Shown in pieces: positions 54,103 through 63,137 of a stretch of DNA of 64,000 nucleotides. The position numbers and the translations under genes are program-made. The first letter of the stretch is position 1, and each line of letters opens with the position of its first letter. This DNA comes from Prochlorococcus marinus str. MIT 0919 (GTDB lineage Bacteria; Cyanobacteriota; Cyanobacteriia; PCC-6307; Cyanobiaceae): assembly GCF_027359375.1 (NCBI RefSeq), contig NZ_CP114779.1, positions 434,001 to 498,000 on the forward strand, in the 5' to 3' direction. The notes beneath the pieces were generated by a model, which was not told the DNA's origin, did not search any database, and saw nothing but the letters and a program-made list of their open reading frames with translations.

Positions 54103-55499
54103 TAGGAAACAACTCTCACTTGTAGAGGTATCTGATTAGGCCAAAATTTATGCTGTCCTAGCATCCAATTAATACGTTGTTGGTCTAACAACTCACCAGG
54201 AATGAGAACTGGTATACCTGGAGGATAAGGGCAAACCAAATCAGCCGAAACCAGGCCTTCAGCTTCATTTAACATAACTAAATTAGAATTTGAATTATAA
54301 GCCAAAGAACATGACATGGAAGGGTGGGACAACAAAGGAAAATTAGGTCCTGGGAAAGGAGGATAAGTTTTAGGTGAAGTGTTATCTAAAAGAAGTTTAT
54401 ACCAGCATTTTTTCATTGCATGAGCCAAACCTTTAAGGGGGTTGAACCCTAAGCAAAAAGTAAGGGTCCCAGGCTCAGGGAGTTCGCCAATAATTCCGTG
54501 TTTAATAAACCATTTATCTGCATCAAACCCACAAATCCCATGATAAGAACTATGCAGAACCAAACGAAGAGGGTCATCATTCTTTAGCAATGGCAGCCCT
54601 AAATTTTTAAGTCTTAAAAAAACATCTCTAGCATCATCAATCTGAGAGCTTAAATTCCTTTTTCCAGATCTACTAGTTAGCTCCTTAAGTGCCAATTCAC
54701 AAGAAGCCAATAATAATGAACTAGGACTAGTGGTTTGAAGGAGGCCTAAACATCTTGATATCACAGACGGATCAACCAATTGACCTTGCGACCAAAGAAC
54801 TGCTGTTTGCACAATTCCTTGAGCTGATTTATGAAGTGAGTTAACAACAAGATCTGCGCCAGCTTTAAGTGCGGATACTGGAAGGCCTTTATCTATGTCA
54901 CTAGCAAAATATGTGCCATGGGCCTCATCAACTAAGACTTTTAAGCCTTGCTTATGAAGGCGTTTTATAAGAATAGAAAGCTCTGAAGAGTAGCCATGAT
55001 ACGTTGGATTAATTAATACCGCAGCTGTTATATCTAATTTACAAGAGGAAGTTAGTTTTAGTACTTTGTTTAGCCAATCTATATCAGGGGGGTAAGCATG
55101 ACCTCGGTCTGATAAATAAGGTATATCAAATAATACAGGAACTATATCTCCCAAAACACATGCTTGTATAAGACTCCTGTGAGCATTGCGTGGCATCAAG
55201 ATAGCTTCTCCTGGTTTAGCAATTGCCAAAAGAGAAGCTTGAAGCAACCCTGTCGCACCATTAACTCCATACCAACAATGATCCGCTCCAAAAACCTTTG
55301 CGGATTCATCCTGACTAACAGCAATAGCACCTATAGAGCAAAGAGGACCTCCAATATCGAGTAATTCAGGTAAATCCCAGATCCCTGGGCGTTTTCGCAA
55401 AAGTCTCCTTAAATCAGTAGGCAATGCGAAACCTCTCCCATGTGCAGGTAAGAAGAGATTTTTGCCTCTTTTATATGTGAGGAGATCTGATATCTTCAT
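54102..55499 (-). CDS. Orn/Lys/Arg decarboxylase, class III PLP fold
   Basis: This 465-residue PLP decarboxylase has the AAT-like fold: NGATGLLQAS near residue 80, DEAHGTYF with the cofactor Asp191 and His194, and the Schiff-base lysine Lys224 in NSLHKSAQG. It is much shorter than E. coli LdcC/SpeC (about 700) because the wing domain is absent. This shorter form, resembling B. subtilis SpeA/YaaO, occurs in cyanobacteria. Whether it acts on arginine, lysine or ornithine cannot be read from the sequence. Confidence 0.86.
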   Translation of the reverse strand: MKISDLLTYKRGKNLFLPAHGRGFALPTDLRRLLRKRPGIWDLPELLDIGGPLCSIGAIAVSQDESAKVFGADHCWYGVNGATGLLQASLLAIAKPGEAILMPRNAHRSLIQACVLGDIVPVLFDIPYLSDRGHAYPPDIDWLNKVLKLTSSCKLDITAAVLINPTYHGYSSELSILIKRLHKQGLKVLVDEAHGTYFASDIDKGLPVSALKAGADLVVNSLHKSAQGIVQTAVLWSQGQLVDPSVISRCLGLLQTTSPSSLLLASCELALKELTSRSGKRNLSSQIDDARDVFLRLKNLGLPLLKNDDPLRLVLHSSYHGICGFDADKWFIKHGIIGELPEPGTLTFCLGFNPLKGLAHAMKKCWYKLLLDNTSPKTYPPFPGPNFPLLSHPSMSCSLAYNSNSNLVMLNEAEGLVSADLVCPYPPGIPVLIPGELLDQQRINWMLGQHKFWPNQIPLQVRVVS

Positions 55500-55599: not shown

Positions 55600-57246
55600 A
55601 TGCGTTATAACCCTAAACGAGATTTTGCATGGTTGATAGTCCAACCATGGATATGGATACCAAGGCTCTTACAAATAATTGGCTCAATAACTATTTTTAT
55701 AATTAGTTTCTTAATACATAGTGGAAGTAAAGATTTAAAAAAGCAGAAACAACTAGCAAAAGACCTCTTAAAAAGACTTACAAATCTAGGTCCATGTTTT
55801 ATAAAAGTTGGCCAAGCCCTTTCTACAAGGCCAGATTTAATAAGCAAAGACTGGCTAGAAGAACTAACAAAACTTCAGGACGACTTGCCAGCTTTCGAGC
55901 ACGCAAAAGCAATTCAAATAATTGAAAAAGAACTTGGGAATAATATAAACAATCTTTTTAAAATATTTCCAAGCGAACCAATTGCATCAGCAAGTCTTGG
56001 TGTTGTTTATAAAGCACAATTAAAAAATAATACTTATGTAGCTGTTAAAGTACAAAGGCCAGGCTTAAGCTATATCATTAGAAGAGATATAGTTATAATA
56101 AAATTACTAAGTTTTTTTGTTGGTCCATTATTACCCTTAAACCTGGGATTTAGTTTAAGTGAAATAATAGATGAATTTGGCATAAGCTTGTTTGAGGAAA
56201 TTGACTATGGAAAGGAAGCAGATAACGCTGAAAGGTTTGCATTACTATTCTCTAAAAATCCATCAATACGTATACCTATGGTTGAACGTATGTATTCCTC
56301 AGATATTATAATTACAACAAGTTGGATAGAAGGTATAAAACTAAAAGATAGAAGTTACTTAAAAGAAAACGAGATAGACCCCACAGCCATAATAAAAACT
56401 GCTGTAACGAGTGGTATACAGCAGTTACTCGAATTTGGTTATTTTCATGCAGATCCCCATCCTGGGAATATGTTTGCACTAAAGTCAAAATCTGGCGCGT
56501 CAGGTCTTCTTGCTTATATAGATTTCGGAATGATGGATTCAATTTCCGAAACAGATAGAATAACTCTAACTGGAGCCATCGTTCATCTCATAAATAAAGA
56601 TTTCCTCTCCCTTTCGAAAGATTTTCAGAAACTAGGTTTTCTTAGCCTAAATCAAAATCTAGAAAATATAGTCCCTGTTCTAAGGGAAGTTTTAGGTAGT
56701 GTTATAACTAAAGAAGTTAATTCTTTTAACCTTAAAAGCATAACTGACAAATTCTCAGAATTAATGTTTGAATACCCCTTTAGAGTGCCTGCTCGTTTTG
56801 CGTTAATTATTAGAGCTGTAGTAAGTCAAGAAGGTCTTGCTCTAAAGCTTGACCCAAGCTTTAAAATTCTAAGATTTGCTTATCCCTACATAGCAAAAAG
56901 ACTATTAATTGATCAGAATGAGGAAATGCTAGGAATCCTAATGGATGTGATTTTTGATAATGAGGATAATATACGTGTAGATAGACTTGAAGGCTTACTT
57001 GAAGTGTTGACTGAAGATACAAGAAATCCAGGATTAGAGTTACTTCCTGTAGCAAGAGATAGCCTCAAATTGCTTATAAGTGCAAAAGGCTCAAAAATAA
57101 GGAGAAAGTTTCTTCTTTCTATTATTAAAGATGATAAACTTAATACTTCAGACGTAAAAAATCTTCTGAAGTTAGTTCATAACAAATTCAACCTATCCTC
57201 TTTATTTAAAGGTATAATTAAGGAGTCTAATGCAATTACTATTTGA
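55600..57246 (+). CDS. ABC1/UbiB-family atypical kinase
   Basis: This 548-residue ABC1/AarF/UbiB protein has the family-specific KxGQ motif FIKVGQALSTRPDLI, the A-rich loop and ATP lysine (SASLGVVYKAQL, VAVKVQRPG), the catalytic HADPHPGNM and the metal-binding YIDFGMMD. Two hydrophobic stretches near the N-terminus (IIGSITIFIISFLI) suggest membrane association. Plastid and cyanobacterial members regulate quinone or prenyl-lipid metabolism. Confidence 0.9.
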   Translation: MRYNPKRDFAWLIVQPWIWIPRLLQIIGSITIFIISFLIHSGSKDLKKQKQLAKDLLKRLTNLGPCFIKVGQALSTRPDLISKDWLEELTKLQDDLPAFEHAKAIQIIEKELGNNINNLFKIFPSEPIASASLGVVYKAQLKNNTYVAVKVQRPGLSYIIRRDIVIIKLLSFFVGPLLPLNLGFSLSEIIDEFGISLFEEIDYGKEADNAERFALLFSKNPSIRIPMVERMYSSDIIITTSWIEGIKLKDRSYLKENEIDPTAIIKTAVTSGIQQLLEFGYFHADPHPGNMFALKSKSGASGLLAYIDFGMMDSISETDRITLTGAIVHLINKDFLSLSKDFQKLGFLSLNQNLENIVPVLREVLGSVITKEVNSFNLKSITDKFSELMFEYPFRVPARFALIIRAVVSQEGLALKLDPSFKILRFAYPYIAKRLLIDQNEEMLGILMDVIFDNEDNIRVDRLEGLLEVLTEDTRNPGLELLPVARDSLKLLISAKGSKIRRKFLLSIIKDDKLNTSDVKNLLKLVHNKFNLSSLFKGIIKESNAITI

Positions 57247-57312: not shown

Positions 57313-58019
57313 ATGACTGAAAAACGTATTAAAAAAATAATCGCCGAGTCTGGCTTTTGTTCTAGGCGAGAGGCCGAGAAGTTTATAAGACAAAATAAAG
57401 TTTTAGTAAATGGAAAGATAGCAAAGCTAGGCAATAAAGCCAACCAAAATATAGATACCATAATCGTAGATAATTTTTCTATTCCTAAAAGTATTCCTCG
57501 AAAAGTATTTTTAATAAATAAACCTAAAGGGGTAATATGTAGCTGTAAAGACCCTCATGGAAGGAAGACTATAATAAACTTACTTCCAAGAGACCTAAGG
57601 GAGTGAATGTATCCTATAGGGAGGTTAGATTATCAAAGTAAAGGTGCTATTTTAATTACAAATGACGGCGAATTGACTCTTAGATTAACACACCCTAGGT
57701 ATAGTCATACTAAAACTTATCATGCATGGGTAAAAGGAATACCATGTAATGAAACAATCAAAAGTTGGGCTGAGGGTGTAATTCTTGAAAGCAAAAGAAC
57801 TCGAACAGCATGTCTAAAGGTTGTCAAAACTATGAAGCACAAACACTTCTTAAAATCGAATTAAAGGAAGGACGAAATAGGCAAATCCGCAAAGTAGCAG
57901 AGTTACTAGGGCATCCTGTAATAGACCTTCAGCGCATATCTATAGGAGAGATAAAGATAGAAGGCCTAAAGGAAGGATTTTGGCGAGAACTTACAAAAAA
58001 TGAAATATCACATCTGTAA
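57313..58019 (+). pseudogene. rluB: RluB/RsuA-type pseudouridine synthase, broken by stop and frameshift
   Basis: Three reading frames together encode one S4-domain pseudouridine synthase. Residues 1-97 (57313-57606) hold the S4 domain (RIKKIIAESGFCSRREAEKF) and the start of the catalytic domain (FLINKPKGVICSC). An in-frame TGA at 57604-57606 falls where the family has Gly (before MYPIGRLD). The catalytic Asp (GRLDYQSKGA) lies in the next piece from 57607. A second break, loss of one base in the A run at 57826-57829, shifts to the frame reading LLKIELKEGRNRQIRKVAELLGHP. Adding one A there restores the family sequence. It is either a recent pseudogene or two sequence errors. Confidence 0.88.
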
Positions 58020-58103: not shown

Positions 58104-58535
58104 ATGGAAAGCAACAAACAAAGGCTTTACGAATTGGGTAATATCATAAAAGAGAAGAGGGAGTCCTTAGGCTTTCCTAGGAGTGAACTTGCTGTTAAAA
58201 CTAAGGTTTCGGTAACAATAATACAAGCTTTAGAAAATGGTTGGTTTTCCCAACTGCCTAAAACAAAGTATCTGCCAAAGATGATTATTAGGCTAGGCAA
58301 AGAGCTTGGTATTGAAACTAGTGTATTAAATGATCTTCTAGCAGATGAAATAAGTAATTCCAAAGAAAAAAACATGCCTTTTTTTACACCTTCTAGCATA
58401 GATATATTTACAACATGGCAAGGAAGTTTGTTTTATCTTATTGCTATTCTAATCAGTTTTTTATTAATAAATAAATACCACACTTATCTTTCGGAGAATC
58501 AAGCACATACAAATATTCCCATAATATTAGAGTAG
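58104..58535 (+). CDS. RodZ-like helix-turn-helix membrane protein
   Basis: This 143-residue protein has an N-terminal helix-turn-helix of the HTH_25/RodZ type (LGNIIKEKRESLGFPRSELA, then VSVTIIQALENGWFSQLP). One transmembrane span follows (LFYLIAILISFLLIN). Only about 20 residues follow the membrane, so the periplasmic domain of RodZ is missing. RodZ links MreB to the envelope in rod-shaped cells; a role in coccoid Prochlorococcus is unclear. It converges with malQ 7 bp away. Confidence 0.7.
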   Translation: MESNKQRLYELGNIIKEKRESLGFPRSELAVKTKVSVTIIQALENGWFSQLPKTKYLPKMIIRLGKELGIETSVLNDLLADEISNSKEKNMPFFTPSSIDIFTTWQGSLFYLIAILISFLLINKYHTYLSENQAHTNIPIILE

Positions 58536-58541
58536 GTTGTA

Positions 58542-60086
58542 TTAATTCAATAAAGAATATACATTCTCAAATTGACGATCACAATTTCTACCTAAATCGC
58601 CATAATCTTTAAGTGCAGTAAAAAGCTCTTCATCAAATTTATTTAATCTCCATTTCCAATTACCTGAGATAGTTCCTGGTATGTTAAAGCGTGCCTTATC
58701 ATCTAATGATAATAAGTCCTGAATAGGAGCAATAAATAAGCATGCCTTTGTTCTCAATCCAACTTCTATCAATTTCCAGGGAGGAGACGCAATATCTGAT
58801 TGCAAGTAATTAGATACACTGTTTTTAACATCATCCCCGGCACTTGACCACCAACTTAAAGTTGTCGGATTGTCATGTGTTCCGGTATACACAACAGATC
58901 GATATCTATTAATATTCTCAGGCAAGTAAGGGTTCCCTGAGTTGCCGTCAAATGCAAATTGAAGAATTTTCATCCCTGGCAAATCAAAGAAATCACGAAG
59001 CAATTCAACATCCTGCGTAATGATGCCTAGGTCCTCTGCTACTAAAGGAAGTTTGAAATTATTGTCAAGAAAGAGACTCTTTAGCAATTTCAGTCCTGGC
59101 GAAGGAAACCAGTAACCATCTTGAGCAGTATTATGATTGCCAGGGACTGCCCAAAATCCTTTTAAAGCACGAAAGTGATCTATTCGCAATAAGTCAAATT
59201 GAGCCCATTGCCTTAAAACTCTTTTCCTCCACCAATTGAAATGAGTTTTTTTATGCATTTTCCACCTATAAACAGGCGTCCCCCAAAGTTGCCCTGTTTC
59301 AGAGAAATAATCGGGAGGAACTCCACTTTGCTTATATAGACTTCCATCAGAGAGTACTGAAAACAAAGATCTATTAGCCCAAACATCTGCACTATCACGC
59401 GAAACATAGAAAGGCAAATCTCCGAAAAGCAGTACACCAGAATCTTTTGCCAAGGTTTTAATTTTTAACCATTGACGTTCTAAATGCCATTGCAGCAAAA
59501 AGTGTTCTAATAACTTATCTTTGTATTTATGCTTTAGTTTATTTAGTTCTTTTTTATTATGAGAAGCAAAAGATTGGGGCCATTCCCACCATGGAAGTCC
59601 GGAATTCTGACGTTTTAATTCCATAAATAGAGCATGGTCTTCTAACCAAAACTGCTTAGACACCCAATTCTTAAATTCCTTGTGGAGAGATTCTCTTAAA
59701 CTTGTCCATTTTTCTCTTAATGCTTGGCCTAACTTTTCGCTGCGAAGATTAGCCAAGTCGAAATCTACCGAATTACAATATTCCTCTCCTTGGGTAAGTT
59801 CATCAAGAATAGTGGGAGAAAGAAAGCCATCAGCAACAAGGTCTTCTACATCAAGAAACCATGGATTTAAAGCAAAGCTAGATGGTGAACTATATGGTGA
59901 TCCAGTTTGATCAGCAGGTGATAAAGGTAATACCTGCCAAACACTAATGCCATTACTTGCTAATAATTTCAACCATTTTCTTGCTTCCTTGCCAAATCCA
60001 CCGCAAATGTTTGCATTAGGCAAAGCAGAAGGGTGGAGCAATACACCATGAAAACGTGGTTCATAGGGTATAGATGGTTTATCCAT
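58542..60086 (-). CDS. malQ: 4-alpha-glucanotransferase (amylomaltase)
   Basis: This 514-residue GH77 enzyme rearranges short maltodextrins in glycogen and maltose breakdown. WQVLPLSPADQTGSPYSSPS is the family start motif. The nucleophile Asp is in LLRIDHFRALKGFWAVP, the acid/base Glu in PLVAEDLGIIT, and the third Asp in YTGTHDNPTTLSWW. Length is normal for bacterial MalQ. It complements glgB and glk in this window. Confidence 0.95.
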   Translation of the reverse strand: MDKPSIPYEPRFHGVLLHPSALPNANICGGFGKEARKWLKLLASNGISVWQVLPLSPADQTGSPYSSPSSFALNPWFLDVEDLVADGFLSPTILDELTQGEEYCNSVDFDLANLRSEKLGQALREKWTSLRESLHKEFKNWVSKQFWLEDHALFMELKRQNSGLPWWEWPQSFASHNKKELNKLKHKYKDKLLEHFLLQWHLERQWLKIKTLAKDSGVLLFGDLPFYVSRDSADVWANRSLFSVLSDGSLYKQSGVPPDYFSETGQLWGTPVYRWKMHKKTHFNWWRKRVLRQWAQFDLLRIDHFRALKGFWAVPGNHNTAQDGYWFPSPGLKLLKSLFLDNNFKLPLVAEDLGIITQDVELLRDFFDLPGMKILQFAFDGNSGNPYLPENINRYRSVVYTGTHDNPTTLSWWSSAGDDVKNSVSNYLQSDIASPPWKLIEVGLRTKACLFIAPIQDLLSLDDKARFNIPGTISGNWKWRLNKFDEELFTALKDYGDLGRNCDRQFENVYSLLN

Positions 60087-62561: not shown

Positions 62562-63137
62562 TTATAAATCATCTTCTATTAACCCAAGTGCATCATGAAT
62601 TCTAATTTCATGGTGATTCTCTACTATTCTTAATTTATCTGAATTCCAGCTATAAATAACTCTAGAACGATAACGATCTTGATCTATTAATCTAGTGTGC
62701 TCTAATACATACCAGCGATCATATTTGGATTCAAAAATCAATTCATGCTCATCTACTTGTCTTATGCTTGAAACACCTGGTGATTCACTTAAGTAGCAAT
62801 TGTTTCTATGAAGTTGATGACCTAAAACAGATACTTCTATAATGCCTTCTTTTGAATAAGAAGGCTTTTTTTTAAAGAAATCAGAATTATCTTCTGTCAT
62901 CCAAGTAAACCTATATCTAAGATCACCCGGAGTTCTCTCAACATATTTTTCAATTTTAATGATCATTTCAACATTTAAGACATCCTCATCATCGAAAAAA
63001 TATTGCCTCCTAGACCTCCATTCTCCCAAGTTTCTTCCAAACCAACGTCTAAGATTATTATCAAAATTAATCCTAAAGTTATCTTCTTGACTGGGCGAAT
63101 CTATGCCTCCCCCTTTTTTTGAGTCAGTTAAAACCAT
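62562..63137 (-). CDS. Conserved protein, possibly lipocalin-like (CpcS/CpeS-related)
   Basis: This 191-residue beta-rich protein contains LGEWRSRRQYFFDDEDVLNVE, YRFTWMTEDNSD and LLGHQL-like and Y-W-V-L strands. The W-x-S-R-R-x-Y start followed by successive strands resembles the CpcS/CpeS lipocalin-fold bilin lyases, but the match is from memory and weak. Prochlorococcus retains a few such genes for its residual phycoerythrin. An unrelated beta-barrel is equally possible. Confidence 0.5.
   Translation of the reverse strand: MVLTDSKKGGGIDSPSQEDNFRINFDNNLRRWFGRNLGEWRSRRQYFFDDEDVLNVEMIIKIEKYVERTPGDLRYRFTWMTEDNSDFFKKKPSYSKEGIIEVSVLGHQLHRNNCYLSESPGVSSIRQVDEHELIFESKYDRWYVLEHTRLIDQDRYRSRVIYSWNSDKLRIVENHHEIRIHDALGLIEDDL

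Follow-up and report, generated by a model that had tools for sequence, protein, structure and literature searches.

A disrupted pseudouridine synthase gene near malQ

The window, i.e. the whole 64,000-nucleotide stretch analysed here (C1:434001–498000 of the genome of Prochlorococcus marinus MIT 0919, hereafter G000), carries on its forward strand a gene of the RsuA/RluB pseudouridine synthase family (57313–58019) that is interrupted by an in-frame TGA (57604–57606, +) and by a one-base frame change near 57826–57829. Frame 1, starting at ATG 57313, encodes the S4 domain and the beginning of the catalytic domain in a first piece of 97 amino acids that ends with the TGA (57313–57606, +). Past the stop the same frame continues as MYPIGRLD in a second piece (57607–57864, +; an ORF of 85 amino acids), which contains the GRLD motif with the catalytic Asp and the tyrosine of the HTKTY motif but is out of frame from about 57826, where an AAAA run (57826–57829, +) marks the site of the frame change. 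The family sequence then resumes in another frame, in a third piece (ORF 57810–58019, +) encoding the C-terminal end. The pieces matched pseudouridine synthase models separately (S4, 2.8e-11; PseudoU_synth_2, 2.7e-11; TIGR00093, 3.4e-22 and 1.5e-15, or 78.9 and 57.3 bits), in agreement with a first-pass annotation of this DNA, which had described one stop and one frameshift in a gene with an otherwise intact S4 domain and catalytic Asp. The glycine that it expected in place of the TGA was near-invariant in 46 intact orthologues.

The gene lies in an order shared with relatives (cdsA – decarboxylase – ABC1 kinase – rluB-like gene – HTH_25 – malQ), and its neighbours in the window are an intact ABC1 kinase-like gene upstream (55600–57246, +) and, downstream, an intact HTH_25 gene (58104–58535, +) and a malQ-like gene (58542–60086, −), which also served as a control for selection. 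The relatives G002 and G012 carry an unbroken copy at the same place between cdsA and malQ. Some genomes of genus g79 have a small membrane-protein-like ORF between the kinase gene and the rluB site (G183, L146:7965–8423; L164–L166), which the window does not have.

The label "rluB-type" given to the gene in the first-pass annotation was right as to the family, while the name RluB proved loose. The intact orthologue of G002 scored 161.2 bits against TIGR00093, the model of the RsuA/RluB/RluE/RluF subfamily (cut-off 109.3), but only 90.3 bits against the E. coli-type RluB model NF007976 of NCBIfam (cut-off 290), and it had better scores to RluF and RluE than to RluB. Family and domain order are those of E. 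coli RluB, the 23S pseudouridine-2605 synthase (PDB 4lab, 4lgt), in which His131, Ser133, Glu135 and Arg138 bind the bulge (PMC3919597). Unlike in the E. coli enzyme, three of these four residues are absent from the native orthologue: with the catalytic Tyr as anchor, the G002 stretch HPKFNHTKSY retains just the His. For brevity, the native gene is called rluB below.

An RluF-type synthase in a tRNA-Pro island

A family search of the genome identified an intact relative of 240 amino acids outside the window (G000:C1:45831–46550). This protein scored 320.6 bits against the RluF equivalog model NF007784 (NCBIfam), just above the cut-off of 318, and its best match among solved structures was E. 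coli RluF (3dh3, 2.5e-81), the 23S pseudouridine-2604 synthase (PDB 3dh3, 2gml), to which it aligned end to end over the S4 and catalytic domains. The alignment placed the catalytic Asp in FPIGRLDK and the conserved Tyr in HEKEY, the GRLD and EKEY motifs being common to both proteins. Unlike E. coli RluF, the gene is cargo of an island, and its nearest relatives outside Prochlorococcus are found in marine Bacteroidota (about 72% identity). At the protein level, rluF copies were 92–95% identical in nine genomes of genus g79, 91% in G117 (genus g17) and 80–92% in the g18 genomes examined. The G000 copy grouped with those of g79, its exact placement being weakly supported, and was 97.5% identical at the nucleotide level to rluF of G183, a genome of a different genus, whereas core proteins of the G000 genus and g79, such as the neighbouring kinase and MalQ, were only about 55–65% identical. 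It follows that rluF was transferred horizontally. A phage origin of the gene was considered and rejected: no relative was found in IMG/VR, and the copies in phages were all below 60% identity and came from other hosts. These RluF-like or related synthases occurred in 57 phage records (gut phages and phages of Listeria, Enterococcus, Acinetobacter and others), some of which may represent host DNA.

The neighbourhood of rluF differed in nearly every genome, and the part common to G000 and several g79 genomes consisted of the gene itself, flanked by about 110–150 bp on the upstream side and about 27 bp on the downstream side. On contig C1 of G000, the 3' end of an intact tRNA-Pro(tgg) gene (63,043–63,117) recurs exactly at 54,852 and 45,362. 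These repeats delimit two inserts in tandem (about 9.5 and 8.2 kb; G000:C1:45362–63117), and rluF is located 469 bp from the last repeat. Near the middle repeat lies an integrase gene (L301:3260–4450) with RHRY..GH..Y motifs, which was recognized by a PHROG integrase profile (3.4e-15) and had no match in Pfam. The tandem inserts (L301:3260–11117, L035:5362–12001) also encode a PD-(D/E)XK nuclease-like protein, a ParA-like ATPase and two TPR-repeat-like proteins. Of the nine g79 carriers, six had a copy of the tRNA-Pro 3' end 161–189 bp before rluF, and three genomes (G132, G335 and G340) showed a further copy in the same orientation 118–121 bp after the gene, giving an att–rluF–att unit of about 1 kb. 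The att-like repeats of g79 matched at 29–39 of 42 positions, compared with a maximum of 21–26 for shuffled sequences. ARAGORN found no tRNA beside rluF; the att fragments are half tRNAs and were detected by repeats and pattern.

Tycheposons are described, at second hand, in PMC10872708 as tRNA-targeting cargo elements of Prochlorococcus with a tyrosine recombinase. Judged by that description, the G000 island, with its tandem arrangement at tRNA-Pro, integration into a tRNA gene flanked by exact 3'-tRNA att repeats and a tyrosine recombinase, resembles these elements, the comparison covering att repeats and recombinase. It differs from the tycheposons so described in that the cargo is an rRNA-modification gene and that some genomes have a compact version, about 1 kb long and bounded by att-like repeats of its own.

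Distribution of rluF and decay of rluB

Among 121 Cyanobiaceae genomes of at least 90% completeness, none of the 13 with rluF had an intact rluB, compared with 107 of the 108 without rluF, in which the gene contains no internal stop. The remaining genome (G077) had neither gene, and this absence may be a gap, since its kinase gene lies at a contig end. A broken rluB suspected in the rluF-free genome G097 was rejected, the TAA being the normal end of the gene. Within genus g79, among the genomes with a match, intact rluB was found in 0/9 with rluF and 19/19 without. Fisher tests overstate the significance of this exclusion because the genomes are related; yet three genera are involved and the lesions are different. 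Both genes were found in five genomes (G000, G335, G183, G340 and G117), and in all five rluB was damaged, each time in a different way.

To grade the damage, 53 near-invariant residues were scored, with 46 intact controls that were each tested against the rest and showed at most 5 changes. In the window gene a single one of the 53 residues was altered besides the stop, compared with 8–12 in the older decayed copies, which bears out the earlier suggestion of a very recent decay. The G183 and G340 genes have open frames with 10 and 8 changed residues, respectively, the catalytic Tyr being among those of G340; rluB of G335 is interrupted by four stops and its catalytic Asp motif is gone, and that of G117 (genus g17) has two stops and many changes. 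Pairwise dN/dS of rluB had a median of 0.158 among rluF-free g79 genomes and rose to 0.29–0.36 (median) when decayed copies were compared with these genomes, reaching 0.89 between G335 and its near relative G152, in which rluB is intact and rluF absent. No relaxed selection was observed on the neighbouring malQ in the same genomes. On the malQ tree, in which several nodes were weak, six changes were required for the six rluF carriers.

In genomes with rluF alone, namely G132, G080, G306 and eight members of g18, the site still held the genes for the kinase, the HTH protein and MalQ, and no remnant of rluB was detectable between them. The window gene is the youngest stage of a series whose end stage is the complete loss of rluB at the same site. 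Three rluF-bearing g79 genomes (G207, G263 and G237; 92–97% complete) had neither the syntenic ABC1 kinase gene nor malQ, as if the entire kinase–rluB–HTH–malQ block were missing; a common assembly gap is possible but would be odd. In G330, rluB is decayed, with several stops and frame changes (G330:C6:19031–19571; L293, L295), and rluF was not found in this 77% complete assembly; this genome is a counterexample unless its rluF is in the missing part.

Proposed displacement of rluB and modification of helix 93

Taken together, it is probable that the native rluB became dispensable once an RluF-type synthase came in on a mobile element integrating at tRNA-Pro. In the proposed sequence of events, rluF would arrive on such an element, the incoming enzyme would fulfil the function of the native one or occupy the same helix, and rluB, having thereby lost its selective value, would decay until it is completely lost from the site. 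Gain of rluF before loss of rluB is the favoured order, because an intact rluF coexists with early-stage damage to rluB, that of G000 being the youngest.

Decay of rluB by general genome streamlining, with the gain of rluF unrelated or a later rescue, is an unlikely alternative. The lineages do have reduced genomes, and G330 combines a decayed rluB with no detected rluF, but that assembly is incomplete, rluB is retained intact in virtually all rluF-free genomes of at least 90% completeness, and the genomes with both genes pair an intact rluF with rluB at various stages of decay, as fits a gain that came first. Sequencing or assembly errors in an intact gene, which the first-pass annotation had also considered, are a poor explanation for G000. 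One point change plus one run-length change is a typical error signature, and nearly all other residues of the window gene are conserved; however, when 224 kb of G000 (window and flanks) were set against a collinear stretch of 240 kb from G002, rluB was the sole gene with a frame change among 182 conserved genes (64,083 codons). A second gene was flagged by a stop (G000:C1:408006–409097, outside the window), which falls at reference residue 44, near the N-terminus, and is probably a difference in start site. That both defects fall in a single gene while the remaining 181 show no clear one makes error unlikely, the more so as G000 is a single contig of 1,716,770 bp scored as 100% complete and rluB is independently broken or decayed in all four other rluF carriers that retain it. 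A split or recoded functional protein, produced by stop-restart at the TGA–ATG and a programmed frameshift, would suit the ATG directly after the TGA and the conservation of the pieces but is hardly credible, as it requires two separate events, a canonical slippery heptamer is absent at GTC AAA ACT (by inspection), and the gene is unbroken in relatives and plainly decayed in the other genomes with both genes. The pseudogene in the window is real and young, derived from a native gene for an RsuA/RluB-family rRNA pseudouridine synthase and in itself an ordinary thing.

Its context is probably wider, in that the mobile rluF would have displaced the native gene repeatedly, the G000 copy being one instance. 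In E. coli, RluB modifies position 2605 and RluF the adjoining U2604, both in the same stem-loop of the peptidyl transferase centre, with slight activity of RluF on U2605 as well (PMC3919597). The sequence of the target helix (E. coli positions 2604 and 2605), GTGAGACAGTTCGGTC, is present and conserved in G000. By analogy with the neighbouring E. coli targets, the gain of rluF may have caused the loss of rluB because the two enzymes would overlap in function on one rRNA helix, rluF being presumably expressed and active in its carriers. The first-pass annotation had proposed that, should the damage be real, the strain lost a 23S pseudouridine; the native gene is indeed broken, but the proposal is incomplete, given the intact acquired RluF-type enzyme in the genome. 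If the mobile rluF made the native gene dispensable, a lost pseudouridine is therefore only half the story.

Each ingredient is already known: the enzyme families, this sort of mobile element, and the displacement of genes, paralogous or non-orthologous, by horizontal transfer. As in known displacements, a native gene would here be replaced by a transferred relative. What sets this case apart is that a single locus shows all stages across several genera and that a likely vehicle has been identified. The combination is apparently unreported; no paper describing the replacement of rluB by rluF was found in the open-licence literature. A trivial-looking broken gene thus becomes a replicated natural experiment: in several lineages, and at all stages, an enzyme of the translation apparatus gives way to a mobile relative. 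Whether adjacent rRNA pseudouridines in the peptidyl transferase centre can stand in for one another could be tested here directly, and the case suggests that tRNA-targeting elements bring in cargo by which core ribosome modification is altered in phototrophs that rank among the most abundant. A broader and more tentative idea, which we put forward with some reserve, is that rRNA modification enzymes move between picocyanobacteria as small att-flanked cassettes whose arrival repeatedly disables the native enzyme. If such cassettes do act in this way, the pattern of pseudouridines in helix 93 of the peptidyl transferase centre would be a horizontally swappable trait, and the modified site would possibly shift from one uridine to its neighbour.
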